From positions 1 to 53,800 of the forward strand of contig JAJBAV010000018.1 in assembly GCA_020532085.1 (NCBI GenBank): 53,800 nucleotides of DNA. Direction: 5' to 3'. The translations under genes and the position numbers were made by a program. Shown piece by piece: positions 11,788 through 53,800 of this stretch. The notes below the pieces were generated by a model. It made no database searches. It saw nothing but the letters and a program-made list of their open reading frames with translations, and was not told the origin of the DNA. Each line of letters starts with the position of its first letter. Within the stretch, counting starts at the first letter, position 1. This stretch comes from Candidatus Cloacimonadota bacterium (GTDB lineage Bacteria; Cloacimonadota; Cloacimonadia; Cloacimonadales; Cloacimonadaceae).

Positions 11788-12702
11788 ATGATGAACAGAT
11801 CACTCAGATTGACCCTGCTGCCGCTGCTGGCCGCCATCGCGCTTTTCAGCTGCGGGACAAACACCCCGCTGGTGCCGCCGGAAGACGATGCCATTCTCAA
11901 TTTCGGCACCGATGCTTCCCTTGAGATCGTCACCTGGAATCTGCGCACGTTCCCGCTGGACACCGCCAGCATCCAAACCATTGCCCAGATCATACCGCAG
12001 ATGAAAGCAGACGTCATCGCCTTCCAGGAGATCATGGACTACACCGCTTTCAACGAACTCGCCAGCCTCATCCCGAACTACTCCGCCCATATCTACACCG
12101 CCACCAACACCTATCGCCTGGCCTTTCTTTACGACACCCGCGTGATCCAGGTCAACGACGCCTACACCATCTTCGAAGGCGACACCAATCCCTTTCCGCG
12201 CGCGCCTTACATATTGGACTTCGATTTTCAGGGGCAAAACTTCAAGGTGATCAACAACCATCTCAAAGCTTACGGCAACAACCATATAGATGAAACCGAC
12301 CCCTGGGACGAGGAATACCGCCGTCGCCTGGCCTGCCAGATGCTGGACCAGCATATCACGCAAAACCTGCCCAACGAGAAGGTGATCGTGGTGGGCGACA
12401 TGAACGACCAGATCGCCGAACCGCCGGAATACAACGTCTTCCAGGTCTTTCTGGATAAACCTGGGGAGTATCGCTTCGCGGACATGCCCATCGCCCTGGC
12501 CCCCACCTACAACAACGTTTCCTACCCTTCCTACGTTTCGCATATCGACCACATCATGGTCACCAACGAACTTTTCAGCGCCCTCGACGCTGCCGACAGC
12601 GTCTGCCGGGTGATCCGGGTGGATGAATACATGGGCAACTGGCAAAACTACTCCGACCAGATCTCCGATCACCGGCCCTTGGGGGTGAAACTCTTTTTCT
12701 AA
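11788..12702 (+). CDS. Endonuclease/exonuclease/phosphatase-family lipoprotein
   Basis: A 304-residue lipoprotein of the DNase I-like metal-dependent phosphoesterase superfamily. The signal peptide ends in ALFSC, a slightly atypical lipobox. Superfamily motifs appear in order: VTWNLRTFP, DVIAFQEI (metal-binding Glu), NNHLKAYGNN, VVGDMND and the C-terminal SDHRPLGV catalytic His. The substrate could be nucleic acid, a sugar phosphate or a lipid; the sequence does not decide. Two adjacent ATG codons (11788 and 11791) are possible starts, and neither has a strong ribosome-binding site. It is divergent from the C25-like gene with a 133-base shared upstream region, and no terminator is evident downstream. 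Confidence 0.85.
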   Translation: MMNRSLRLTLLPLLAAIALFSCGTNTPLVPPEDDAILNFGTDASLEIVTWNLRTFPLDTASIQTIAQIIPQMKADVIAFQEIMDYTAFNELASLIPNYSAHIYTATNTYRLAFLYDTRVIQVNDAYTIFEGDTNPFPRAPYILDFDFQGQNFKVINNHLKAYGNNHIDETDPWDEEYRRRLACQMLDQHITQNLPNEKVIVVGDMNDQIAEPPEYNVFQVFLDKPGEYRFADMPIALAPTYNNVSYPSYVSHIDHIMVTNELFSALDAADSVCRVIRVDEYMGNWQNYSDQISDHRPLGVKLFF

Positions 12703-12856
12703 CCCAGATCTGGGGAGAACAGATCAACGTCCCTGGAAGGGTGTAGCAGCGATGGAACAGAGCGACGCAGGAGCATCGACTACAGCAGAACATCCCCCAC
12801 CCTTTCCTAAACCTACGTCATTCCGGACGCAGATGCTTCAGCGCTGGAGATCCGTC

Positions 12857-13016
12857 AGGGTCCTCGCCGGACAACCTGTTGGCCGATGGGGTGATTCGAA
12901 TCCAGCCCTTGCGGGAATAGCCCATCCCAGACACAGGCGAATGCGGGGTCTATCCAGACGCGGTCTGCATCGACACCTTCCCAGGGCATTACCCGGGTCG
13001 TCTGGATTCCGGGTCC
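12857..13016 (+). repeat. Dispersed repeat family B, copy 1
   Basis: About 160 bases also found at 26022-26135 (same orientation, roughly 90% alike over the 3' 110 bases) and inverted at 27461-27572 (sharing both ends but lacking the middle). Markers are GGTCCTCGCCGGACAAC at the 5' side, GCGGGAATAGCC, and the 3' part GGGCATTACCCGG with CTGGATTCCGGGTC. The surrounding 12703-13229 has no supported gene. It also has a small GGCGGG-type hairpin near 13157-13190. Confidence 0.75.
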
Positions 13017-13229
13017 CCGGCATTAAAACGCCTACCCGGAAGGACATGCCTAATCTTGGTGGTAAAGGACTCACTTGGTTGATCTGTGAAGTCCTGAAAT
13101 CACCGCCCCCTTTGCCTCTTCCCATTCACTTCCCATTAGCCTCCCCCTAACTTCCCGCCTGTTAGGCGGGAACTAAGCGGGAGGCGGGCAAGGGGCGAAC
13201 GGGAGGGGAAAAAGGGCCAATCCAGAGCC

Positions 13230-13260
13230 AAAAAAGGGAGGCCCCGGCAAGCGGGGCCTC
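13230..13260 (-). terminator. Rho-independent terminator of the lysC-guaD-secreted protein run
   Basis: On the minus strand GAGGCCCCG pairs with CGGGGCCTC around a 5-base loop and is followed by TTTTTT after two C's. It is 34 bases downstream of the stop at 13294. Confidence 0.88.
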
Positions 13261-13293
13261 TGGCAGAAAGGGTTCTGCTTTATCAGGCAGGGG

Positions 13294-16200
13294 TCATTTC
13301 ATCAGAACCATGCGTTTGGTCTGCGTTTGCGAACCGTTGCTGAGGCGGTAGTGATAGATGCCGGAGGAAACGCCGCGACCGCTGGCGTCGGTGCCGTCCC
13401 AGACAACGATGTGGCTGCCTTTCTCCAAGTGTCCGCTGGCCAGGGTTTTCACTTTCTGGCCGCGCAGGTTGAAGATCTCCAGAGTGTGGGACTTGGAGGG
13501 GTCACCGATCTGGAAACCGATGCTGGTGCTGGGATTGAAGGGGTTGGGATGGTTCTGCAGCAGCCGGAATGCTTCCAAGCCTGGCACCACGGGATCGAGG
13601 TTGGCCACGGTGGCGTTGGAAAGCCTTTGCGCGTAGAGGCCCAGGATCTCGGTCTTGCCGCTGGAGCGTCCGTCCGCCCAGAGAGCGTAGGCGTCGTTGC
13701 CGTGGGTCACAATGAGTGGATTGTACTGCATTTTCCCGGCGTCGGTGAGCACATCGCCCAAAGGCGAGACCTGCACGAAGGTGCCGTCGGACTTGATGTA
13801 TTTGTAATAGATGTCGGATTCGATATCATAGTAGTCCGCCCAGGCGATCACCATGCCGCCGTTGTCGAAGCGGGCGAGGGTGGGATTGGACTGGGTGCTG
13901 TCTTTCTGCACCACGAAATTGCCGAGGTCGCCCCAGAGGGGTGATCCGGCCAGGGAATACTTCTGGGCGATGATGTCGTGCATGCCGTTGATGTTTTCGC
14001 ACCAGGCGAAGACGATCTCGTTTCTGAAGCCGTCTTTGTCCACCAGGGTGGGTTTTTCCTGTTCGCGCCCGTAATCGGCCAGATTCACTCCGAGCGGTTC
14101 CCAGAGGCGTTCTCCGGCAGTGGAGAGATGCTGTCCGTAATAGTTTTGGATGAAGTCGCCACGCCCGTCCTGCCACATCACGAAGATGCCCTGATCGGTC
14201 TTGGCGGTAATCGGAAAACGCTGGGCGGTATCGTAATTGGAGTGAGTGGAGGCAAGCTGTCCGGCTGTGGGCCAGCCGGTGGCGGCGCTGCCGTCCGGGC
14301 CCAGCTTTTTCACATAAACGCTCTGGGTGAAATCGGAAGGCTTGAAGCGCTGCCAGGAGTAATAGTTTTCCTTGAGGTCGGTGATCACGCATTCGTCGTT
14401 CAGTTCAGCGCCCGTGAGGGTGCTCACCATCACGCCGTCCGCGCCCCACTGCTTCTGGCCGTTCTGGATCATCTGGCCGTACACGTGGTAGCGGTAACTG
14501 GCGCCGACCTGGTCGTAGTTCGACCAGCCGACGTAGAAATTGCCGTCCAGATAGCTGATGCGGGGGTCTTTCTGGCTGAGGGGGTCCATGTCCGTGAGTT
14601 CCATGCCGGTGTCGCCCCAAAGCCTGTTTCCGTTGGGATCCAGCAACTGGAGGTAGATCTTGGGGTTGGGGTTGCGGTTGTCTTCCCAGGCTACGGCGAT
14701 ATGTCCGTCTGGAGAGACCACCGCGCTGGGTGTGAGCTGGTTGTAGCCGGTGGACAGGGTCACGGGGCGGCCGTTGGGTTCCAGGGCCACGCTGCCGTCG
14801 GGATTGAGGATTTGGAAATAGATCTGGTAGCCGAGGTTGGCGAAGCGGGTGTCCTGCCAGAGGATCACGGTGTCGTTGGCCCGGGGCAGGATCAGATAGT
14901 TGTCCAGCGGGGTGTCGCCGCTGAGACCCCAGAAAACTTCCTCGCCGTTGTTGGCCAGTTGGGGGGTGCCGGCGGAATTGTAAACTTGGAAGTTGATGCC
15001 CACGCTGCCGTTGCGGATGTCCATCCAGTTGATGAAGACGTTGCCGTTGGCCACTTTCACCAAACCGCTGTTCTGCTGGTTGGGGGCGGTGCAGACGGGC
15101 TTGCCGTTGGCTTCCCAGAGGGAGGTTCCAGAGGCGGAAAGATGTTGGGCGTAAATGTCGTCATTGGGCGTGTTGCCGTTGCGCAGGTCATCCCAAACAA
15201 CGTAGCAGCCGCCGTTTCCGTCGGAAGCCATGCGAGGCCCGCTTTGGGCGAAATCCGCGACGCTGAGGGGCACACCATTCGCGCCCCAAAGCAAGTTTCC
15301 GGCCGCGCCGACCTTCTGCGCGTAGAGGTCCGTATACTGGTCGTCCAGGTCCTTGTCCTCCCAGATGATGATGGCAGCGTTGTCGCTGGTGGCCACTATC
15401 CTGGGGTTTAGCTGCTGGGTGAAGCCGGGGGAGCCGGAATCTCCGTAAACCACGAAGGGATCGGTCCAGAGCAGCTGCCCGGCCAGGTTCACCTTCTGAG
15501 CGTAGATGTCTGGATCAGTGTTGCGCTGATCCTGCCAAGTGAACATGAATTCCCCGCCGGTGAGGGTGGCCATGCGGACCTTGCTTTGGCTGCCGGTGGC
15601 GTCGGAAAGCACCACCAGCTGAGGCCAGGCCATGCTTCCGTCGGGATTGAAGCGTTTGAGGAAAATGTCTTCCGCGCCCACGTAGCTGTGGGTGTAGGCG
15701 ATCATCAGGCCGCCCTGTCCGTCCGGCAGCATGGTGTTTTGTTCCTCGTCGCCGGTGCCGTTGGCGATGGGAATGCCGTTTAGGGCCCAGACGGGATTTC
15801 CGGAGGCGTCGAGCCGCTGTCCGTAAAGGTCTTTGCTGGGGTTGCGGGAATCCGACCAAACGATGTAAGCGCCGCCGGCGTTGTCCGGCTCCATGTTCAG
15901 CGCGATCTGCACTTCAACGGCCGTGCAGACGGGTTTTCCGCCCGCGGGCCAGAGCAACTGGCCGTTGGTGTCGATCTTCTGGGCGTAAACGTTGCCGTCC
16001 AAGTCGTCCGAAAAGTCGATCCAGGCGATGATGAAATGGTTGTCCGAGGTCATGGTGATCACGGGGTCTTCCTGGCGGTCCGGCTTGCCGTCGATCAGCA
16101 GGGGCTCGCCCCAGACCATGTTTCCGGCCGCGTCAACCTTTTGCGCCCAAAGGTCACGCTCGCCCAGCTTGGTGTCGGACCAAACGTAGATGGCGCTGCC

Positions 16201-43465: not shown

Positions 43466-44308
43466 TCAAGCTGGTAGTGAAGAATTGTCTATCAGCCTGG
43501 TGTTGCCGATCTTCACGGCCAGCAGCAGGCGGGAATTCTGGTCCACCGGGTCCGCGTCGGCCAGGGTGTCGGAGTCCACGATCTTGATGTAGTCTATCTT
43601 TCCGCCGGCTTCCAGCACAATTCTTTCCGCTTCCGCCAGCAGTTCCCGGCTGTCCCTGATGCCCCTGGCGACCATCGCCCGCACCTGTTTCCAGGCCTGG
43701 CTAAGGCATCGGGCGCGGACGCGTTCCTCCGGGCTCAAAAACACGTTGCGCGAACTCAGGGCCAGCCCGTCGTCCTCGCGCACGATGGGGCAGCGCGCGA
43801 TGCGCGTTTCGCTGTTCAGGTCCTGCAGCATGCGCTCCAGCACCACGATCTGCTGAAAATCCTTCAGGCCCATGAACATCAGATCCGGCTTCACGATCTG
43901 GGTGAGTTTCAGCACCACGGTGGCCACTCCCCGGAAATGTCCGGGCCGGCTGGCCCCGCAGAGTACGTTTGCAAGGCCCTCCACTTCCACCCAGGTGCGA
44001 TACCCCGGGGGATACATCTGCGCGTCGTCCGGAAAGAAAACCAGGTCGGTCCTGTGCCGGGCCAGCAGTTCCAGATCGCCTTCCAGGTCGCGCGGATATC
44101 TGCCCAGGTCCTCCTGGGGACCGAACTGGGCGGGGTTCACATAGATGGATACGACACTCAGATCGGTCTCAACCGCGCACCTTTCCACCAGGGAAAGATG
44201 GCCCCGGTGCAGCGCGCCCATCGTGGGCACAAAACCCACCCTCAGGTCCCCTCTGATCTCAGCCAGGGCCTGGCGCAGTTCCGCCACCGTCTGGCAAACA
44301 CGCATCAT
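43466..44308 (-). CDS. panC: Pantothenate synthetase
   Basis: A 280-residue enzyme joining pantoate and beta-alanine with ATP. Motifs: PTMGALHRGHLSLV (HIGH-type), YVNPAQFGPQEDLGRYPR, FMGLKDFQQ and VREDDGLALSSRN (KMSKS-type). The first of two ATG codons overlaps the panD stop as ATGA. No panB is in the window. Confidence 0.96.
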   Translation of the reverse strand: MMRVCQTVAELRQALAEIRGDLRVGFVPTMGALHRGHLSLVERCAVETDLSVVSIYVNPAQFGPQEDLGRYPRDLEGDLELLARHRTDLVFFPDDAQMYPPGYRTWVEVEGLANVLCGASRPGHFRGVATVVLKLTQIVKPDLMFMGLKDFQQIVVLERMLQDLNSETRIARCPIVREDDGLALSSRNVFLSPEERVRARCLSQAWKQVRAMVARGIRDSRELLAEAERIVLEAGGKIDYIKIVDSDTLADADPVDQNSRLLLAVKIGNTRLIDNSSLPA

Positions 44309-44655
44309 TTAACCGGTTCGTTGCCCTCACCCAAAATGATGATCCTGGGCTGGTAAGTTTCCATCTCCGCTTCGTCCATCAGGCCGTAGTTGACTACGAT
44401 GATCCTGTCGCCAGTATGCACCATGCGGGCCGCGGCGCCGTTGATGCTGATCTTGCGGCTGCCGGGTGCCGCGGCGATGATGTAGGTGGAAAATCTCGCT
44501 CCGTTGTTCACGTCCCAGATCTCCACGCGCTCATGCTCGTGCATGCCGCTCAGTTTCAGCAGCTCGCTGTCTATCTGGATGCTGGCGTTGTAGTTCAGAT
44601 CGCACTCGGTAACCGTGGCCCGGTGCAGCTTGGAAAGCAGTTTATACCTGAGCAT
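44305..44655 (-). CDS. panD: Aspartate 1-decarboxylase (precursor)
   Basis: A 116-residue pyruvoyl enzyme making beta-alanine for PanC. The start at 44655 is set by AGGAG 7 bases upstream and gives the usual N-terminus MLRYKLLSKLHRATVTE. It retains K9, the precursor S25, and STY near residue 58. The residue before the self-cleavage serine is Ala (A24-S25, in NYNASIQID) rather than the usual Gly. It is the first gene of the pan pair. A TTGACA at 44709-44714 (minus strand) could be its -35 box. Confidence 0.95.
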   Translation of the reverse strand: MLRYKLLSKLHRATVTECDLNYNASIQIDSELLKLSGMHEHERVEIWDVNNGARFSTYIIAAAPGSRKISINGAAARMVHTGDRIIVVNYGLMDEAEMETYQPRIIILGEGNEPVK

Positions 44656-44728
44656 TTTTATACTCCTCATATGTTTGTGATAATCCCAAAAAAAACAGAC
44701 TGCTAATATGTCAATGATTTTCCTTGTC

Positions 44729-44774
44729 CGCCGGGCAACGCGATGCTACTTTAGTTGTCTTCCCGGCGCTTTTT
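44729..44774 (+). terminator. Terminator-like hairpin, orphan
   Basis: CGCCGGG (44729-44735) can pair with CCCGGCG (44762-44768), helped by CAAC/GTTG inside, and is followed by CTTTTT on the plus strand. No plus-strand gene lies upstream, so its role is unclear. It ends 8 bases before the putative left end of the mobile element. Confidence 0.35.
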
Positions 44775-44781
44775 CAGCCCC

Positions 44782-44934
44782 TGTATAAACTGACACCCAA
44801 AGCTGCAAGTTGTGACACAAGGGGAAAGTGGGGATAAGGCTTTATGTGGTGGTGAGTTGCGATGGACTGGTTATGGAAATGTCCAAGCGCTGATTTGGAC
44901 GTATTTGGACTGTTTGCTGACACTATTACTGCAA
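44782..44934 (+). repeat. Putative left end with transposase-binding-type repeats
   Basis: CTGACAC followed by CTGCAA occurs at 44790-44808 and again at 44917-44934; TGTGACACAA lies at 44811-44820. Terminal TGT plus spaced TGACA-like repeats is the usual design of Mu/Tn7-superfamily ends (family knowledge). The exact terminus is inferred. Confidence 0.45.
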
Positions 44935-44954
44935 ATTAGCGAGGCGTTTGGACA
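44880..44954 (+). promoter_or_regulatory. TCCAAGCG-type sites left of the repressor
   Basis: TGTCCAAGCG at 44880-44889, the degenerate inverted TTTGGAC at 44894-44900 and 44904-44910, and CGTTTGGACA at 44945-44954 (reverse complement with one mismatch). They belong to the same motif family as those in the early gene. Confidence 0.55.
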
Positions 44955-44993
44955 AGCTTTGGAAAGAGCAGTTGGGAAATCGGAACTTTGAAA

Positions 44994-45749
44994 TTAGAAA
45001 AACCGCAATTGGAGTGCGATTGTGCCGATCAGGAAAGCTCCGTAATTCCAATCCGAGTCTAAAACAAGAACCGGATAGTCTATATTAAATGGTTGGAGGA
45101 CAATCTGTTGCCTGCGGTGATCGATCTGCACCTTCTTGATGGTGAGACCATCGTCAGTCCTTACAACTGCAATTTTACCATCAGCATTTTCCCAGCTCAG
45201 ATCACTCTTGATGACCACGATGTCCTGATGCTGGATCACGGGCTCCATGCTTCTGCCATTTACTTGAAAGACAGTGTATTGCTTGGGGTTGCCGGTCAGG
45301 AATGAGACTGGTAATTGGATCTGCCCCACCTGACTCCACTCGTCTTTGATCTCCATCGGCGGTCCGGCAGCTATCTCTCCAACTATGGGAAAGGTGATAG
45401 ATCTAGTGGGATCGAAGTCCTGATTGGTGATAGGGTGCAGGATTGGAGAGATTATGGTGGGGATTGAGCTGTCTGGATTGGTTGGGGGTGTAGGTGCCTG
45501 GATGGATTGGATGAGCTCTTGAAACTCATCTTTGGCATGCATGGAGCCGTTTCCTGTAAAGAGCCAGTGGATGTTGATCTGATCTTTGGAGAGTGCTTCT
45601 AAGAACTCCGGATCGGGATATCTCTCGTTTAGCTTGTAGCGGGAAAGCGAGGCACGGGAGATGCCATACTTAGTGGCAAACTGGTAATCCTTGAGTCGCA
45701 TGGCCTTAATCACCAAGCTAAGGCGTTGTCCGATAGTCGGTTTATTCAT
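44994..45749 (-). CDS. LexA/CI-like self-cleaving repressor
   Basis: A 251-residue repressor: an N-terminal XRE-type helix-turn-helix (~5-60; TIGQRLSLVIKAMRLK, YGISRASLSRYKLNER), a linker rich in Pro/Ser/Thr, and a C-terminal S24 peptidase domain. The cleavage site is probably A128-G129 (GEIAAGPP), the serine S167 in NGRSMEPV and the lysine K205 in LTIKKV. Such repressors are inactivated after DNA damage by RecA-stimulated self-cleavage (family knowledge). Start at 45749 is chosen over an ATG four codons earlier because GGAG lies 6 bases before it. It faces away from the transposition genes, as the c repressor does in Mu. Confidence 0.92.
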   Translation of the reverse strand: MNKPTIGQRLSLVIKAMRLKDYQFATKYGISRASLSRYKLNERYPDPEFLEALSKDQINIHWLFTGNGSMHAKDEFQELIQSIQAPTPPTNPDSSIPTIISPILHPITNQDFDPTRSITFPIVGEIAAGPPMEIKDEWSQVGQIQLPVSFLTGNPKQYTVFQVNGRSMEPVIQHQDIVVIKSDLSWENADGKIAVVRTDDGLTIKKVQIDHRRQQIVLQPFNIDYPVLVLDSDWNYGAFLIGTIALQLRFF

Positions 45750-45947
45750 CGTGAACTCCATGTAGAAACTTTGCTATTGACTATATCCGCATGGCTGCAA
45801 GATTAGTTCCAGATGCCATTCTGCTGCAAGGCGGTTTGGAGTCAATACTAAAGATTATAGTGTGACCCAGGTGGAATATAAAGTATTGCCGGAGAATGCG
45901 TAAGAAAGCTGGCAAACTCGCAGAAAAGACTTCCCAAGGTTCTGCGC

Positions 45948-45974
45948 TTGTAGTTCTTAGCACCCTACTAAATA
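45948..45974 (+). promoter_or_regulatory. Candidate early promoter of the transposition operon
   Basis: TTGTAG (45948-45953) and TAAATA (45969-45974) with a 15-base spacer lie just upstream of the early gene. The 240-base region between the divergent repressor and early genes must hold both promoters. Confidence 0.35.
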
Positions 45975-45991
45975 CATAAGAGAGGTGTAGA

Positions 45992-46564
45992 ATGACTACC
46001 AAGAAACAACGCCAAGCGGAAGTGCAGAAACGGGTGAATCAGGGCAATGTCCAAGCGGGTACCCCTGTCCAAGCGGGGGTAGGCATGAGGCTTAACTCAT
46101 TGATAACTATGATGAGAGGCCAAAATGTCCAAGCGCTTGAGCTCATTTTTCAAGATTCCCGGCTGAAAGGTCCAAGCGGGTCGCAGTATTTGAAGGATTT
46201 GGACATGGACATTAATGTGGATTTGATCTGGTTACCCATCGACAGGGTTGCCATGTTGCTGAACAAAAATCTGAAGACGATCAGAAGAATGGTCGATGCC
46301 GGGAAGCTGACCGCGCTCAAGCATCAGATCCCCACCAAGAACGGAGCCACGATCAAGACCTTTGTTCTGGCAACAGAGGAGATCATTCAGGCTGAGTATG
46401 ACAGATTCAGAGACAGCTTGCGCAAACCGGAGCTCTACTTTGAGGAAGAGATCGGTTTAGGTGAGCATGGCTACTCCAGCGTTTTCCTGGTCTATTACGA
46501 GAGCGGTAAGGATCTGGCTTCTAAGGTTAGCGAGAAAGCAGGAGGTTCAGATGTTTCCCTATAG
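45992..46564 (+). CDS. Early helix-turn-helix protein of the mobile element
   Basis: A 190-residue protein whose middle (IDRVAMLLNKNLKTIRRMVDAGKLTA, residues ~80-110, quoted in parts as DRVAMLLNKNLKTIRRMV) resembles an excisionase/MerR-type helix-turn-helix. The N-terminal 60 residues are low-complexity; their coding sequence carries four TCCAAGCG sites. It occupies the place of ner in Mu and overlaps the transposase start by 14 bases. It might be a regulator or an accessory DNA-binding subunit of the transposase (inference). Confidence 0.75.
   Translation: MTTKKQRQAEVQKRVNQGNVQAGTPVQAGVGMRLNSLITMMRGQNVQALELIFQDSRLKGPSGSQYLKDLDMDINVDLIWLPIDRVAMLLNKNLKTIRRMVDAGKLTALKHQIPTKNGATIKTFVLATEEIIQAEYDRFRDSLRKPELYFEEEIGLGEHGYSSVFLVYYESGKDLASKVSEKAGGSDVSL
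46048..46178 (+). promoter_or_regulatory. Cluster of TGTCCAAGCG sites inside the early gene
   Basis: Exact TGTCCAAGCG at 46048-46057, 46066-46075 and 46126-46135, and GGTCCAAGCG at 46169-46178. The first three encode VQA in one frame; the fourth is read in another frame as GPS, so the DNA word rather than the peptide is conserved. Confidence 0.65.
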
Positions 46565-49109
46565 CGGCAGACCGACTGAGGAGTTCCTGAGAGAGTATCG
46601 CAGTAAACTGAATGAACTGCAAGAACTGATGGAAAGCCAGGGACTAAAGCTGGAGATCAAGAGCGGTGGCAGATGTAAAGTAGCTCCAGAGGTAAAGGCT
46701 GGAATAGGCAAAGTTAGTGGTGAAGGTGATACGTCTGTCGATTATAGCTTCCTGCTCGGCTACCGCCAGCAGTACAATGCCAAGGCCAAAGATGATAGTT
46801 CAGAAGACGATCTGGAGTCAGAGACCGTCTATGAGACCTATGAAGACAATCTGGAGTTCGAGCGTAAACTCACCCTAATCCACGAAGCCAAGGAAAATGG
46901 TGTAGTGATCGACTTCGGCAGTGACTTTCTCGATCTGGCTCCGGTGGAAGAGGAAAGGCTGTTATACAGTGATGAAGCTCAACTCTACGGCAGGTTCTGC
47001 CAGGAAGTGATTCGCAGAGTATATGGAGCTGAGTCCAAAGTATTAGCTTGGAAACGGATCACCAGTGACTATAACGGCAAGAGACTGGTGCCGGAGCTCT
47101 ACAATCTCAAGGGACCCCGAAAAGAGCGGGCACTGCGAGAGTGGTTACGCGTTTACCATGAGACCAATCTGGATATGTATGCCCTGATCCATAAGAGCAA
47201 GGGCAAGTACAAAGAACGCAAGATCAGCTATCAGGAACAGCAGTATCTGCTGCACCTGCTGCTCAATCCCAATCGCATCAAAATCGGCTCTGCCATCACC
47301 AACCTCAAACAGATGAGCAGAAACAAAATAATAGAATCCGAAACCAATGAACGGACGCTTAGACGCTGGTGCGAGGAATGGGCTGCCAGGCATCCGGCAG
47401 AGTGGCATCAGGCCAGGGATGGCAGCAAGTATGTTTCTGAGCGGATAATCAAGTCTATCCGCAGAGACGATAGTACTCTCAAGGTAGGTGAAGTTTGGGT
47501 GGCAGATGGACATACCCTCTCCTTCGATATCCTCAATCCCCAGACCGGCAGAGCCCAACGCATGACGATGATCATGGTGATGGACTGGGCAAGTAGGTAT
47601 CCGGTGGGAGCCTCACTCGCCTTCACTGAAGATAGCCAGCATATCCTCACTGCCTTCCGTAATGGCTTTATCAACTGCGCCCAGATCGCAGATAACAATA
47701 GCGGAACGATGGCAGTGCTACCAAAGTATGTCTATCTGGATAACGGCAAAGCCTTCCGAGCCAAACTCTTTCATGAGAAATGGGAAGAGCATGATCTGAA
47801 CAAAGAACTGGGTGGCATCTTTCCCAGACTCAATATCGGAGTAAGATTCGCCGAGAGCTACAATGCCAAAGCCAAGATCATCGAACGCTTCTTCAAGACC
47901 TTCCAGGAGCAGTTTGAGCGGTTCATCACTACCTTTAGAGGCGCATCGATTGACGACAAGCCATCTGTGCTGAATCGCAATGAAGTCTGGGCAAAGAAGA
48001 TCTATACCGGTAAGCCACCTACCATTGAAGAGACAATGCAGATGATCGCCTTCTATGTGAGATTCTGTTATGGAGAGACACCGCATAGCTCACTCAACAG
48101 ACGCACACCCTATGAGGTCTTCAGTGCTGCCAGGATAGCCGAGAGTCGCCAGATAGAGATCTCCAGGCTCAACTTCCTGATGATGGCGATGGAACGCAAG
48201 AATATCCGCGCGGAGGGTATCAGGTTGGATAAAAAGGTCTACTGGCACCGGGAACTTGTTAATCATGTGGGACAGCCCTGTATCATCAGGTTCGATTACA
48301 GCGATGCCAGGTGGATCGTGGTCTATGACAAGAACGATGTCTTCATCTGCCAGGCTGCACTAAGAAAGACGCAGCATCCCTTCATTGAAGTCTCGATGGA
48401 CAAGGCAGTCTCGCATAAGGAACTGAACAAGGAATACAAAGAGATCAAGGGTCTTAGACGAGAGAAAGAACGCAGTGCCAAGAAGTGGGTGATCAACTCG
48501 CAGAAGGCTGTCGATAAGATACTGAGCAACTCCCCATCTAAGCAGGAGAAGTTTGAGGATCAGGGTGCCAGAGCGCTCTTCAGCAGTCCTTCCATGCTGG
48601 AAGCACCACCTAAGGATAGTGACGAGATCATCGAGGAGATGACCAGAAAGATGATGATGAGACAGCCCAAACATCCGGATATGCTGAGTCCGGAAGAACG
48701 GGAGAAGCTTGATGCGGAAGAGAAGGAGAGATTGGCAGAGCAGGAGAGGGATAGGATAATCCTCAAGGAAATCAAAGAATCGTTCGACCGTATAGGGCTC
48801 GAATACCAGACTAGTAATGATAAGCCTCCCCTGGAGTTTGCGATCGGCTTCAGCCAAACAGCCAGAGAGTACTACAAAGCTCAACAAAGAGCCCAGGTTG
48901 AACAAGAAGCATCAGATGAAGCACCCACTGCCACCGCAACAAAAGATGCCACAGGTATAGAATCTGAAGATCATGATCCAGCGGAAAAGATCTCCAACCC
49001 AGCAGAATTGCCTGATGATAAGCAATCACAGGATGAGGCCAAGAATGGGCAGTCACCATTCGCACACCTCTCCAGAGCGGAACTCCTCAAACGCATCGGG
49101 ATAAATTAG
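46551..49109 (+). CDS. DDE transposase, MuA/TniA type
   Basis: An 852-residue transposase. The N-terminal ~300 residues are DNA-binding, followed by an integrase-core (RNase H-like) domain with D319 in VADGH, D397 in YLDNGK and E445 in KIIERFF, and a Mu-type C-terminal beta-barrel (~600-660). The last ~200 residues are charged and helical with a run rich in Glu and Lys, probably contacting the AAA ATPase as in Mu. ATG at 46551 with GGAGG 5 bases upstream is chosen; a longer in-frame extension lies inside the previous gene. Its GC content is visibly lower than that of the housekeeping block. Confidence 0.93.
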   Translation: MFPYSGRPTEEFLREYRSKLNELQELMESQGLKLEIKSGGRCKVAPEVKAGIGKVSGEGDTSVDYSFLLGYRQQYNAKAKDDSSEDDLESETVYETYEDNLEFERKLTLIHEAKENGVVIDFGSDFLDLAPVEEERLLYSDEAQLYGRFCQEVIRRVYGAESKVLAWKRITSDYNGKRLVPELYNLKGPRKERALREWLRVYHETNLDMYALIHKSKGKYKERKISYQEQQYLLHLLLNPNRIKIGSAITNLKQMSRNKIIESETNERTLRRWCEEWAARHPAEWHQARDGSKYVSERIIKSIRRDDSTLKVGEVWVADGHTLSFDILNPQTGRAQRMTMIMVMDWASRYPVGASLAFTEDSQHILTAFRNGFINCAQIADNNSGTMAVLPKYVYLDNGKAFRAKLFHEKWEEHDLNKELGGIFPRLNIGVRFAESYNAKAKIIERFFKTFQEQFERFITTFRGASIDDKPSVLNRNEVWAKKIYTGKPPTIEETMQMIAFYVRFCYGETPHSSLNRRTPYEVFSAARIAESRQIEISRLNFLMMAMERKNIRAEGIRLDKKVYWHRELVNHVGQPCIIRFDYSDARWIVVYDKNDVFICQAALRKTQHPFIEVSMDKAVSHKELNKEYKEIKGLRREKERSAKKWVINSQKAVDKILSNSPSKQEKFEDQGARALFSSPSMLEAPPKDSDEIIEEMTRKMMMRQPKHPDMLSPEEREKLDAEEKERLAEQERDRIILKEIKESFDRIGLEYQTSNDKPPLEFAIGFSQTAREYYKAQQRAQVEQEASDEAPTATATKDATGIESEDHDPAEKISNPAELPDDKQSQDEAKNGQSPFAHLSRAELLKRIGIN

Positions 49110-49118
49110 GAGGATAAC

Positions 49119-49829
49119 ATGAAACAGGGAACACTCGTCAGAACGCAGAACGTGATAGCCGCAGACAAATGCATCGAATACCTGCTAACCAGACCTAAGC
49201 TGGAGATGGTGGGGCTTGGATTGCTGTATGGCAGACCAGGCCCGGGAAAGACCACCTATGCGAGTCGGATTGCTTTCAGTAAGGGCTATCTATATGTCCG
49301 GCTGGAGGCAACTACCACTCCCAAGGCTTTCGCATCCAAGCTGCTCTTAGCCTTATACAAGAGATTTGGCATGGGAGAATACATCCCCTACGGAACAGCC
49401 AATGACCTCTTCATGATGTGTATAACCCTTCTGGAGGATCACAAGGATACGATCATAGTTGTTGATGAAATTGACTACGCCTTCCGACACCCACAGCTCT
49501 TGGGAGCGATCAGGGATATCGTGGATGTGACCACAGCGATAGTGATCCTGGTCGGAATGCAGAATGCCAAGGATAAACTCAATCAGATCAACGAGTATTA
49601 CTTCGATAGATGCAATTTCTTCTATGAGTTCCAAGACCTACCCAAGAAGGACATTGCAGAACTATGCAGTGAGGTTTTGGAGATCAAGTTCCATTCTGAC
49701 ATAGTCGACTATGTCCACTTCCACTCTTGCGGTAATGTCCGCAAAGCCATGAAGCTCATCCGCTCTGTGGAAGAGATAGGCAGATACAAGAACCTTGAAC
49801 TGGTTACCCAAGCCGATCTGGATGACTGA
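49119..49829 (+). CDS. MuB/TniB-like AAA ATPase
   Basis: A 236-residue ATPase that in related elements binds target DNA and activates the transposase. Walker A is GRPGPGKTT (residues 38-46), Walker B IIVVDEID (112-119), and a GNVRKAM segment near 205 resembles sensor 2. It lacks the N-terminal helix-turn-helix of MuB and is closer in size to TniB/IstB-type proteins. It starts 9 bases after the transposase gene with GGAGG upstream. Confidence 0.9.
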   Translation: MKQGTLVRTQNVIAADKCIEYLLTRPKLEMVGLGLLYGRPGPGKTTYASRIAFSKGYLYVRLEATTTPKAFASKLLLALYKRFGMGEYIPYGTANDLFMMCITLLEDHKDTIIVVDEIDYAFRHPQLLGAIRDIVDVTTAIVILVGMQNAKDKLNQINEYYFDRCNFFYEFQDLPKKDIAELCSEVLEIKFHSDIVDYVHFHSCGNVRKAMKLIRSVEEIGRYKNLELVTQADLDD

Positions 49830-49836
49830 GGATAAC

Positions 49837-50340
49837 ATGACAGACAAAGAACTGATCCTCAACTTCGTCAGCCAATATGACCGCCCATTCAATGCAGAAC
49901 TTATAGCCAAACTGACCAGTGTAAGCAGAGAAGCAATAGAAATGCTACTGCCTGAACTACTCCAAAGCCAAGCGATCAAGCAGATAGAAGATAGTCCTCC
50001 TATCTACGTCCGAGCCAACCGCTACCAAGCCAGGATCGGCTATCAGCATTATAAAGGCTGGACTTTCAGCATAACAGATGCTCACAGGCTACTGGAGATC
50101 CTGGAACAAGGCAGATTCAAGTCCATCCGAGATATTGCAGAAGCAATTGGCAAATCCAGACAGTGGGTCTATATCTATCTTGAGGCTCTGGCATCGATAG
50201 AGGTTGTAGACCTAAGGAAGCACATTTATGTGGTTATCTCCCGCCAAAACGTGCCCAAAATCGGTAGAAAAGTCCAGAAAGGTATCCTGGGTCAACTCAG
50301 GAATTTGAATAAAATGGGGTGGTATAGATTATTGGAGTAA
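49837..50340 (+). CDS. Helix-turn-helix protein of the mobile element
   Basis: A 167-residue protein with two possible winged-helix units: near the N-terminus (ELIAKLTSVSREAIEMLLPELL) and in the middle (SIRDIAEAIGKSRQWVYIYLEAL). Start at 49837 follows GAGG 5 bases upstream; the gene begins 7 bases after the ATPase. It is last of the rightward operon. Its role is unknown; regulation or target/end recognition are possible. Confidence 0.75.
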   Translation: MTDKELILNFVSQYDRPFNAELIAKLTSVSREAIEMLLPELLQSQAIKQIEDSPPIYVRANRYQARIGYQHYKGWTFSITDAHRLLEILEQGRFKSIRDIAEAIGKSRQWVYIYLEALASIEVVDLRKHIYVVISRQNVPKIGRKVQKGILGQLRNLNKMGWYRLLE

Positions 50341-50513
50341 AATTTGGATTCGGGTACGCTGATAATAGTGTGTCAGCCGAGTAGCTTTTCAACAGTAATC
50401 TCCGAAGTGAATTGATCAAGTAAATCTTTCGTTCCGGAGTCAAACAGCGAATCGTTACCACGCTATACGCGTCATTAGAATTATAGAAATAATTATGAAT
50501 CCAACCTTTATCC

Positions 50514-51176
50514 TCATAATATAATGGCCAATGCAATAGCCACTATGGCTGCAAGTGTCAAAGCATAATTTATCATCAATACCCGTTTTATACTTGCGTT
50601 AGTAGCTTCGAGTGCATCAATTATTCCTCTTAGAGTTATCTCAAGTTTTTCAGAAACAGTTTTAGCTGCTGAGTCGAGCTTGATGGATATCTTTTGATCC
50701 AGTTCCATAAGTCTGCTTTCAAATCCGGTTATCAATGTACTTGAGTTGGTATTCCAGGTTTCGTAACTTTCATTCAATTGAGTTACAAACGTATCGATCT
50801 TCTTTGAAGTGTCTTCCGCAATCTCGTTCAGATCAACCCCAAGGCTGGTCATGGTCACCTTAAAGGAGGCTAAGATATCTTTAAAGGTTTCTATCTTTTC
50901 TGCCAATTCAGCGGTGTTCTCAGATTGCTCCTTGGTAAAATCCTCATATTGGTTGGTTAGATCATCAAGGTTATGGGAAATAAATACTCGGTATTCATTT
51001 ACCGAATTTGTGATTTGGTCATTAAGGGCAGCAAGTTGGTTTATTTTGTCCTGCTGTCCATCCAATTGGGCCCGAAGAGATCCGGATGTACCCTCAAGTT
51101 CTTCGATGTTGTTTTTGATTTTGTTAATAAGAGTGGATAGACTGCCTGCAAATTCTTGTACATCCTTGTTTTCCAT
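50514..51176 (-). CDS. Coiled-coil protein with C-terminal membrane anchor
   Basis: A 220-residue protein, nearly all predicted coiled coil (repeated heptads such as LSTLINKIKNNIEELEG, LAEKIETFKDILASF, MELDQKISIKLDSAAKT), ending in one hydrophobic helix (VLMINYALTLAAIVAIALAI), so it is tail-anchored. ATG at 51176 with GGAG 6 bases upstream starts one base after the RecQ-like stop, so the two are translated together; the longer frame upstream lies within that gene. No enzymatic motif is seen. In paired defence systems such membrane coiled-coil proteins often act as effector or sensor (family knowledge, applied here only as inference). Confidence 0.8.
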   Translation of the reverse strand: MENKDVQEFAGSLSTLINKIKNNIEELEGTSGSLRAQLDGQQDKINQLAALNDQITNSVNEYRVFISHNLDDLTNQYEDFTKEQSENTAELAEKIETFKDILASFKVTMTSLGVDLNEIAEDTSKKIDTFVTQLNESYETWNTNSSTLITGFESRLMELDQKISIKLDSAAKTVSEKLEITLRGIIDALEATNASIKRVLMINYALTLAAIVAIALAIIL

Positions 51177-51177
51177 G

Positions 51178-53793
51178 TTAATCTCCTTTAACTGTTTTCG
51201 AGATGGACTGGGTTGCACTGGCCAAATAGGCCAGCGTTTCAAGATTATTGAAATCATATCCGGTTGTCTGATGAAGGTGGTTTTCAAAATCCGGCATTTC
51301 TTCACTAACACTATGCCAAAATGTCCCCAGAAGTGCCTTGAATTCTTTGAAACCAAGCAGTTCACTTCTGCTTTCCAAATACAGGGATACACCCTTTAGC
51401 AGCTCTTTCGTGCCTTGATTGAACTCCAATGTCTTTTTCTTGGAGATGATGATATTGGTGAACGCATTTAGAATATGAAGGCTGTAATTGTTTGGATTGT
51501 CGTTCAGAAGCCTTATACACGCACCACGAAGTTCCTTGCAATTAGGGATTAGGCCACCGGCATCATTCTTTACGATGTCGATAAACAGGGTTATAATATC
51601 TTCACTTTGCACTTTGCCCCGTTCTGTGGCATTGGTAAGGGAAGCCTCTCTTCCGTCCGGGGTGAAGTAATTATCCCGGAAGTATTTGGAACTGAAATAC
51701 ACATCGATGTATTCACGAAAATTTTCCGAAAGAGGATCCGAATCCTGATTATCCAGTCCATAGCGGCAAGCAAAATCCATGTCCGAGATGGCTTGTTCTC
51801 TCTTCTTTTTTATATAGTTATGCTCAAACTCAATGTAATATCTTATCAGATCGCTGTAGTTTGGCTTATCCTTGTTTTTGAAGAACTCATCTACCATTAT
51901 CTGCGCTTTTTTCTCAGTAAAGTACCTCATCAGATAGTTTTTCATGGTTGTTGTCAATGATTCCCTTTCCTTTGGGGTTATGGTCAGCCGGTAAACTGTT
52001 GATTTGCGATATTCTATCGTATAATCATCAATTACACCAACCAAAGCAAGCCTGTAGATGATCTTACCAAAGACAGTCTTGTTTTTTCTTTTACCAACCC
52101 CAATGTATTCTGTATATGAACTATCGTCCGAATCTACTTCGATCACAAAATCCCGTTTACGACCCTTGTCCCGTAAACAGTCGTTGATTGACTTATTCTC
52201 GGTTTTATCTTTGTAATTTAGTATCTTCTTAGTAAGTTCAAGCTCCCGTTGAACCTCAAGGTAGTTATTATCGTGTAGATACCTTGGTACTTCCATATCC
52301 AGATCTGAATACATCAGGTATGCCAGCGCGAGCTTCCTGTCTCGGCCTATGCGCCCAGTCTCCTGCGAGAAACCTTCTATCGAACCAGGAAAGTTCAAAT
52401 GCACGCTGAAACGGATGTTGGGCTTATTGAAACCCATACCGAAAGCTTTGGTCGCGACCATCAGGTTGATCCTGTTCTCCTTGTATAAACGTTGATAGTC
52501 CTCCATGCTGCTATCTTTGAAGTCTGATTCCAAACCTCCCCTATAATAGCCTGGTTTGATGTTCCTTTCGATTTGAAGCTCCCTCGCCAGAAACTCATAA
52601 GTTCCGGTAACTGGATTATCAGTTTTCTGACCAACCTTTGTGCTAACTCCCAGTACACCAGTGGCATGGGGGCAGAACACTATGATTCCTGTCTCATCGT
52701 TAAGTTTTATACCGGTATTGCCATTAATCAGGAAGTTCTTGCTTTCCTGACCCAAGGTTCTGTTGACACTATTTATATCCTCAATCAAGCGATCATTTAA
52801 CAGACTGAGGAGTTCTTGTCTCTTGGCCAATTTAATCGACTCAATTTTTTTACCGTCTTCTGTGTTTTTTTTGGCTGAAAACCTGATGAATTTATAGACT
52901 ATCTCATCCCGTTTGAGGGAAAGTGCTTTTTCTACTTGGATTGGTTTTTGGGATTTGATTTCCAACTCAGCTTGGACGTCGGTCAGAACATCAAAAGAGG
53001 CGGTTGCAGTAAGCCCGATGACCGTGATATCTCCGGCATCAAAGGGTTTGCAAAACCTATTGGCATTAGCTGCCAGGCTCAGATAGCTGGGCCGAAAGTC
53101 GTGGCCCCATTCAGAAACACAATGGGCTTCGTCAACCACGAAATAGTTAAAATAGTTATCTTCAGCGGCCATGTCCATCAATGCGTTGCGAAACTCCTGG
53201 ATCTGCATTCTTTCGGGTGAGATCAAGGTAAACAAGCTTTGCCCCGATAGCATTTTGAACTCTGCGGTCGCTTTATCAGCCTTGCTCTTATCAGAATTGA
53301 TGTAGACGGAATCTATCCCCAGCATCAGCATTTCGTCATATTGGTCCTTCATCAGGGACTTGATGGGCTCGATAACCAGGGCGAAGCCCGGCTGCATGAG
53401 AGCACTCAGTTGGTAGATGAGCGATTTTCCCCCGCCGGTTGGCAGCAGGCCAATCACAGAATCAAGTCTGAGGGCATGCCTCAGAATATCTAGCTGACCT
53501 TCAATGAACTTCTTTTTACGGAATAAAGTACGCAGGAAATACGTGAGAGAATACGTCGAAGCCTGGTCATATGCTTCTTCACTTACGTCATAGAGCCTGG
53601 AATATTTGATCAACTCCCTAGAATAGTACTTCCTCTGGTATTGATCATCATTTTTTGACCAATCCTGCCTGGTTAGGTAGCGTCTCAAAGGTTGGTGTAA
53701 AATAGGTAACGGCAGATGAAGAAAAAGGTTGAGCCAGATCCCGCTCTTTGTTTTGATGGTTTTGACAAAACTAACAGACAAGGAGACGATCAT
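51178..53793 (-). CDS. RecQ-like superfamily 2 helicase with long unknown C-terminus
   Basis: An 871-residue helicase. Motif [10 protein letters not shown] (~116-125), motif [18 protein letters not shown] (231-246, including the RecQ-specific aromatic loop), motif III GLTATA and motif [13 protein letters not shown] (~487) define the RecQ family. There is an insertion of ~80 residues between motifs III and IV. After residue ~510 there is no zinc-binding cysteine cluster and no HRDC domain; instead ~360 residues of charged helical sequence that I cannot assign. It is therefore not the housekeeping RecQ. The start at 53793 has an in-frame TGA two codons upstream; the ribosome-binding site is outside the window. 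Low GC compared with the chromosome suggests transfer. Confidence 0.85.
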
Positions 53794-53800
53794 GACTCAA

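Follow-up and report, generated by a model that had tools for sequence, protein, structure and literature searches.

Does the right-hand end of contig JAJBAV010000018.1 of a Candidatus Cloacimonadota bacterium (GenBank:GCA_020532085.1) encode a defence system, and is that system intact? The window analysed here is the entire contig (C18, 53,800 nucleotides, the contig end being position 53800). Near this end it carries, on the minus strand, a RecQ-like helicase gene followed by a gene for a coiled-coil protein, which a preliminary description made from the sequence alone had read as a two-gene anti-phage or plasmid-exclusion unit on a mobile element. The pair belongs almost certainly to a conserved family in which a large helicase is consistently accompanied by a tail-anchored coiled-coil protein, and judged from sequence this family probably has a role in defence. 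The pairing claimed for the two genes was real, but the unit is not intact, as the motor gene has, with little doubt, been truncated by an insertion sequence. On balance, we read the locus as a damaged copy belonging to a defence family of helicase-nucleases that would be tethered to the inner membrane.

The open reading frame (ORF) at 51178–53793 encodes 871 amino acids (aa) with RecQ motifs and ends with a TAA stop codon; a 1-base gap separates it from a downstream ORF of 220 aa. The ORFs, the motif alignment and a ribosome-binding site of the second gene, located inside the end of the first, bore out the preliminary description of this arrangement. The 220-aa protein had a heptad signal of z 8.3 against shuffles, and its sole hydrophobic segment, residues 202–220 with a mean Kyte-Doolittle value of 2.48, was situated at the very end of the protein, in agreement with the coiled coil with one C-terminal membrane helix that had been described. 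The contrast in base composition with the host block was likewise confirmed, the GC content being 0.41–0.42 over the pair versus 0.53–0.62 across most of the left 44 kb of the window, and the third-position GC being 0.50 in the helicase gene and 0.39 in the partner gene versus 0.79–0.81 in host genes (n = 3) and 0.59–0.60 in genes of a neighbouring Mu-like module (n = 3).

The pairing is well supported. A coiled-coil ORF was found directly behind the motor gene in every unbroken family locus with a visible gene end, that is, in the window, in genomes G045, G037, G056, G093, G114, G118, G119 and G026, in Haliscomenobacter, Salinibacter, two Rhodothermus plasmids and the enterobacterial records opened, and in four viral contigs; it was retained even in two E. 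coli copies in which the motor gene is split by insertion sequences. Spacing between the two genes ranged from -17 to +26 bases, except for Salinibacter (+102). Sixteen partners were measured, excluding those of G118 (near-identical to G119) and G060 (where the contig ends inside the gene); 15 of them had exactly one hydrophobic segment, the end of which was 0–13 residues from the C-terminus, and their heptad z values ranged from 2.3 to 17. Sequence identity of eight partners to that of the window was 10–21%, suggesting that shape is conserved rather than letters. Among 11 RecQ-like loci of viral contigs used as a control, a coiled-coil partner, judged by eye, accompanied 4/4 motors with the family-specific C-terminal region and 0/7 motors without it (Fisher p 0.003); by a strict count, in which a predicted C-terminal transmembrane (TM) segment was required in the next same-strand ORF and one ordinary RecQ was added, the numbers were 3/4 versus 0/8. 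A search with the partner protein against plasmids gave no match. Co-conservation of the pair elsewhere favours the reading put forward in the preliminary description.

In the motor of the window, the Pfam matches above cut-off were DEAD, Helicase_C and ResIII only. The RecQ subfamily model TIGR00614 (cut-off 219.8) scored 231.4 with the window ORF, and three of six full-length relatives fell just under the cut-off (213.7, 213.7 and 218.3). The housekeeping RecQ equivalog TIGR01389 (cut-off 640.2) was reached neither by the window ORF (263.3) nor by the six full-length relatives (237.8–267.6), PRK11057 (cut-off 1015) was not reached by the window ORF (209.3), and no Pfam match to RQC or HRDC was found in this ORF up to E = 1. 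By sequence, therefore, the C-terminal region is not the tail of a housekeeping RecQ, in line with the earlier description of the helicase as non-canonical; judged from low-confidence structure models, the region may nevertheless contain a remote RQC-like winged helix. The model of the motor (mean predicted local distance difference test (pLDDT) score 57) aligned to RecQ cores (best Z 19.7, root mean square deviation (rmsd) 5.7, 379 residues aligned). For the model of the C-terminal region (mean pLDDT 66), the best Foldseek E values were 0.41 in the PDB and 0.036 in a viral library, and the best VIA match was a TPR protein (Z 6.8, rmsd 4.2, 124 residues aligned). Profile searches against the PDB gave best E values of 0.038 for the C-terminal region and 0.053 for the methyltransferase-like front of some relatives. 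A profile of the C-terminal region, A3, was built from nine sequences including that of the window, whose own score is thus by construction; R19, R103, G195, R199 and L213 were invariant in the nine rows, and a low-confidence model predicted a helix plus beta-hairpin followed by an all-helical part. PHROG 33220 (1,558 positions, unknown function) matched the core of the window motor (3.3e-65) and residues 3–834 of the motor in viral locus L075 (1.9e-133).

Position 53793, taken as the start of the motor gene in the preliminary description, was ruled out by a repeat that covers it. Comparison of the motor protein with its own genome gave eight matches besides itself, one being another helicase (residues 430–510), and the other seven involving parts of residues 1–108 only and lying no more than 125 bases from a contig end. 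The terminal stretch of the window from 53676 onwards was repeated at seven other contig-end sites of the same genome with 99–100% identity, one match being 109 bases long. With three mismatches allowed, the end motif of the repeat occurred at 15 sites, eight of type A, including that of the window, and seven of type B, of which six were at contig ends and one inside contig C25. The flanks of two A/B pairs (C52/C43 and C6/C3) had 8 bases in common, with offsets differing by one base, as expected if A and B are the two ends of one insertion sequence. The recurrence at contig ends, together with these end pairs, indicates that codons 1–39 are element sequence and that the gene's own start is missing; inspection of the sequence to the right of 53800, recommended earlier, met the end of the contig. 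No type B end matched the flank of the window copy, so that the partner contig is either missing or different, and no complete copy of the insertion sequence was seen around the internal type B site. IS256 was considered from the end sequence; the sole PF00872 match in the genome was not linked to the element, and no family is claimed. A search for the lost front half elsewhere in the genome, run without a positive control, found nothing, and this counts against the truncation to the extent that the disruption is seen from one side only.

Over residues 13–829, the native 832 residues were 53% identical to a homologous protein of G045 with an open frame of 1,365 aa, and complete relatives in the loci read measured 1,153–1,737 aa. 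Lacking its front part, the window copy is probably non-functional or keeps helicase plus tether only. Insertion sequences IS1B and IS5 split two of the seven E. coli motor genes, so that the damage in the window has parallels; these splits fit a costly activity as well as simple decay. Coordinates of all features are collected in Table 1.

Table 1. Features of the window (positions counted from its first letter) and of related loci
Feature	Position	Strand	Basis or remark
Native remainder of motor gene: RecQ-type core with the family-specific C-terminal region (~832 aa and stop codon), N-terminal part absent	51178..53675	minus	homologue alignment, repeat match
Helicase motif I (Walker)	53422..53451	minus	alignment
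Helicase motif II (DEAH) and RecQ aromatic-rich loop (SEWGHDFR)	53092..53133	minus	alignment
Helicase motif VI (QETGRIGR)	52342..52365	minus	alignment
Family-specific C-terminal region (profile A3)	51181..52107	minus	profile; low-confidence model
Ribosome-binding site of partner gene, AAAGGAG	51183-51189	minus	inside end of motor gene; read from sequence
Tail-anchored coiled-coil partner, 220 aa	50514..51176	minus	ORF, heptad and hydrophobicity measures
Single C-terminal transmembrane segment of partner, residues 202-220	50517..50573	minus	hydrophobicity
End of insertion sequence, supplying codons 1-39 of the ORF (very probable)	53676..53800	minus	repeat near other contig ends
Separate Mu/Tni-like transposable module (context only)	44784..50331	plus	close copies in other genomes
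S24 repressor	44994-45761	minus	
DDE transposase	46461-49109		
AAA/TniB-like ATPase	49119-49829		
Winged-helix protein	49795-50340		
DUF1848 proteins upstream of motor	L023 15911-16954, L024 1479-2483		two relatives closest in sequence
Split E. coli motor copies (IS1B, IS5)	L125 8381-9078 and L056 8969-9949		
Second Rhodothermus pair	L029 (pRHOM17201) 12080-14927	minus	motor UvrD-like by eye; 184-aa tail-anchored coiled coil

The intact relatives, the fronts of which vary, give an idea of what may have been lost. A restriction-type nuclease motif (DF...E-x-D-[GE]...H) was present in the fronts of 13 of 15 relatives, in 10 by pattern and in G114, L073 and L074 by eye, L073 having one extra residue before the histidine; the 15 include G060, and G056 was left out as its contig starts inside the gene. 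Pfam DUF559 was above cut-off in Rhodothermus, E. coli, L075 and G026 (7.6e-9 in the last), and G026, which is of the window's own genus, thus carries a nuclease front, together with a topoisomerase-type zinc ribbon. A methyltransferase-like stretch was found in L073, which has the nuclease motif as well, and in G045 and G037, which are the two closest in sequence among the relatives with a visible gene front (52% and 37% identical in the motif alignment, respectively). The E. coli front contains HAD and ShosT-like phosphoribosyltransferase (PRTase) stretches, and a ShosA-like dprA gene (6.7e-68 for its product) lies directly upstream and overlaps the motor gene, whereas in G045 and G037 a DUF1848 gene is directly upstream (7.4e-94 and 2.4e-94, respectively). 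The two-gene unit is therefore not complete as it had been described, relatives being larger and some having a third gene. No paper mentioning DUF1848 was found in the open-access library searched. It was also noticed that the PADLOC model RTasDUF1848 (DRT) matched the DUF1848 protein of G045 (4.6e-42).

The spread of the family is patchy. Matches at E 1e-60 or better were found in 6 of 106 genomes of the order, the window's included, and profile A3 in 9 of 124 genomes of the phylum, of which five had helped to build it; outside its building set, A3 was found in the other four (G026, G114, G118 and G119) and in four viral contigs. The E. coli type occurred in 7 of 5,426 E. coli genomes, a count made with E. 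coli-type DNA that would miss divergent types; loci were opened in all seven E. coli genomes and in three of eight enterobacterial plasmid records. Plasmids and viral contigs carry copies as well; scans of viral contigs with single proteins returned no relative. A scan of 84,980 species genomes gave one locus, an ordinary-looking RecQ, and is uninformative on spread because the patterns used were lineage-specific.

A Rhodothermus plasmid bears on how motor and partner might be held together, since a second, oppositely oriented motor/partner pair adjoins the first. The second motor, UvrD-like by eye, gave no match in Pfam or PADLOC. In single comparisons, the 80 terminal residues of the two motors were 33% identical (4e-7), as were the first 80 residues of the two partners (33%, 4e-7). 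Coiled coils being prone to spurious matches, the similarity of the partner heads is to be taken with caution; the motor-tail match involves no coiled coil. Tail and head thus appear to travel together despite different cores, a hint, from sequence similarity, that they form a docking module. A wider class of membrane-leashed motors, in which interchangeable helicases (mostly RecQ-type of superfamily 2, UvrD-like of superfamily 1 in Rhodothermus) dock via a C-terminal tail, is a speculative and somewhat unlikely extension; in such a class the tail would plug into the partner N-terminus and place a helicase-nuclease or helicase-methyltransferase at the inner face of the membrane, where phage or plasmid DNA enters.

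Known defence genes were located near several of the relatives. PADLOC identified HsdM (G045), CARF-RtcR (G056), an IetA-like protein (G093) and DrmA (Haliscomenobacter), each beside one copy; the chromosomal copies of E. coli had a type I restriction system nearby in 3/3 cases and MZA in 2/3; and annotated records showed type I restriction genes near the Salinibacter and Raoultella copies and a CARF protein near a Rhodothermus copy. Several observations weigh on the other side. PADLOC was empty for 6 of 10 chosen neighbour proteins (near five loci), with matches for the other 4; the flanks of G037, G026, G114, G118 and G119 were ordinary by eye, as were those of the viral loci, with an integrase before L075; and the defence-neighbour tally was made without a matched random control. 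G045 and G037, the nearest relatives with the front in view, are without the nuclease motif, and the evidence for a methyltransferase in them is weak, the best Pfam E (0.0073) being below cut-off and the PDB giving no match. The partner in L076, a 206-kb viral contig (8325–8783), is a coiled coil without a membrane segment, so that the membrane is not obligatory, and the similarity pointing to docking comes from one plasmid type. The defence reading of the preliminary description is supported by the neighbourhood of several, not all, relatives, the flanks of five loci being ordinary by eye.

From the motor fragment, its partner, their constant pairing, the front-domain motifs of relatives, the defence neighbours in several loci and the one-sided truncation, we propose the following scheme, which is conditional in its docking, membrane topology, substrate, order of events and anti-phage effect. 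The last ~20 residues of the small protein would anchor it in the inner membrane, and its coiled coil would extend into the cytoplasm and hold the motor via the helical C-terminal region of the latter; such membrane tethering of the motor appears fairly likely. The target of the motor may be foreign DNA met close to the membrane or an intermediate of repair or replication; the RecQ-type core would unwind it and the front enzyme would cut or modify it, this enzyme being a restriction-type nuclease in most members and methyltransferase-like in the two closest relatives. The enterobacterial branch would add a DprA/PRTase module of the toxin-antitoxin type. That the system intercepts incoming DNA, rather than mounting an abortive response, is suggested tentatively, at somewhat less than an even chance.

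Abortive infection, with the motor sensing DNA damage or the replication of a phage and the tail-anchored protein acting as an effector that harms the membrane once released, is rather unlikely. Helicase sensors with separate effectors are known, such as HamB in Hachiman as described in the accessible part of its report (PMC12278908), and breakage by insertion sequences of the window copy and of 2/7 E. coli copies would be expected if the activity is costly. However, the partner consists largely of coiled coil and ends in one membrane helix, which gives it the shape of a tether, the L076 partner lacks this membrane helix, and most motors carry the nuclease motif themselves. A toxin-antitoxin arrangement in the style of RqlHI, PsyrTA or ShosTA, in which the product of an upstream gene, DprA in enterobacteria and DUF1848 in the closest relatives, holds back a genotoxic motor until infection frees it, is unlikely. 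It draws on the E. coli operon, in which the ShosA-like dprA overlaps a motor gene with HAD and ShosT-like PRTase front, and on RqlI, which restrains the genotoxicity of RqlH according to the available text of the RqlHI report (PMC4670107). Yet DprA and PRTase were seen in the enterobacterial branch only, where the PRTase lies in the N-terminal half, in contrast to the C-terminal PRTase of RqlH given in the same text, and the upstream gene of the window is beyond the contig end. Unlikely to a similar degree is a DNA-repair or plasmid-maintenance helicase without defence role that lies in variable regions by chance: the RecQ core, the copies on plasmids and viral contigs, and the ordinary-looking flanks at five loci are what it predicts, but the low frequencies in the phylum and in E. 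coli, the nuclease front and the recurrent defence neighbours in other loci speak against it. A divergent Dpd member with DpdF as the motor is very improbable. PADLOC does rank DpdF models first, the window ORF reaching 5.8e-77 at best, and one of them, PDLC02868, spans residues 471–1471 of the E. coli relative (374 bits). Against the NCBIfam DpdF cut-off of 550, however, the window ORF scored 156.6 and six full-length relatives 132.8–148.5, and no Dpd gene is named in the annotated neighbourhoods of relatives that were read, while the window itself shows one flank of the pair.

The Mu-like module beside the pair, to which the preliminary description had assigned it, is real. Other genomes hold close copies at seven loci, the flanks of which are unrelated; the alignments begin at 44779–44784 in five of these loci (the other two being without the left end) and stop at 50310–50339, and the left end TATAAACTGACACCC is common to the window and these five loci. 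As the homology stops at this point, the module is separate from the pair, and the pair as proven cargo of the element was rejected. Profile A3 was absent from all seven genomes with module copies, a search of 44001–53800 for the left end in inverted orientation, with up to 6 mismatches in 20 allowed, found none, and no target duplication was seen in the flanks inspected, the right end not being defined. In sister genomes G018 and G020 (L122 and L123), panD is followed within ~0.7 kb by the apparent start of a 16S rRNA gene (by eye), where the contigs end, and neither the Mu-like element nor the pair lies between the two; in the window (44725–44784), the island occupies this place. An insertion, perhaps in more than one step, is therefore the simplest explanation for the last 9 kb of the window.

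The preliminary description could match the pair to no named system, and this statement stands: the family is unnamed in Pfam, NCBIfam, PADLOC and PHROGs, none of the named systems compared corresponds to it, and no description of the pair was seen among the matches listed in the open-access literature, a scope excluding subscription papers and most preprints that makes the novelty provisional. The one qualification is that PADLOC puts the E. coli relative under its DpdF model; the likeness to DpdF concerns the helicase core, and annotation tools may file the family under this name. Like RqlHI and PsyrTA, the enterobacterial branch has a RecQ-like motor beside a DprA-type gene, and PADLOC PsyrT matched the core of the window motor (1.2e-61). 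The family differs from RqlH in that its C-terminus is another, mostly helical region followed by the gene of the tail-anchored coiled coil, and no PRTase match was found by Pfam in the window ORF, the C-terminus of which is complete. Likeness to ShosTA lies in the E. coli operon, with its ShosA-like DprA and a ShosT-like stretch (1.4e-7). To our knowledge, ShosTA has no helicase, and its shared parts occur here in the enterobacterial branch only. Indeed, as far as the accessible portions of the reports go (PMC4670107, PMC9122126), it is with this branch only that RqlHI, PsyrTA and ShosTA have further parts in common.

Zorya also combines a membrane coiled coil with a nucleic-acid enzyme, and the coiled-coil part of the partner matched ZorA weakly (best 7.1e-5, PADLOC); the partner differs in having a single terminal helix and no MotA/TolQ-like channel. 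Druantia III (DruE-DruH) is a helicase-nuclease acting on DNA intermediates, but its DruE is a YprA-like helicase in the part of the report available (PMC13192584), and the match in the window is motif-only and weak (2.7e-4). Hachiman (HamAB) is a two-gene helicase system with a nuclease (PMC12278908, accessible part), in which nuclease and helicase are separate proteins, and its PADLOC models matched neither window protein up to E 0.1. Being truncated, the copy in the window has little value in itself, but a version ready for testing is available in E. coli. If the proposed scheme is true, the family would allow the idea of immunity coupled to the place where DNA enters to be tested directly, and it would link the DprA/PRTase toxin-antitoxin systems with helicase-nucleases. 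Helicase-nuclease defence is a known kind, but its constant pairing with a tail-anchored coiled-coil protein, present across distant bacteria, plasmids and viral contigs, is without a name in the libraries searched, and the family is a good candidate for an unnamed type of defence with a membrane-tethered helicase.

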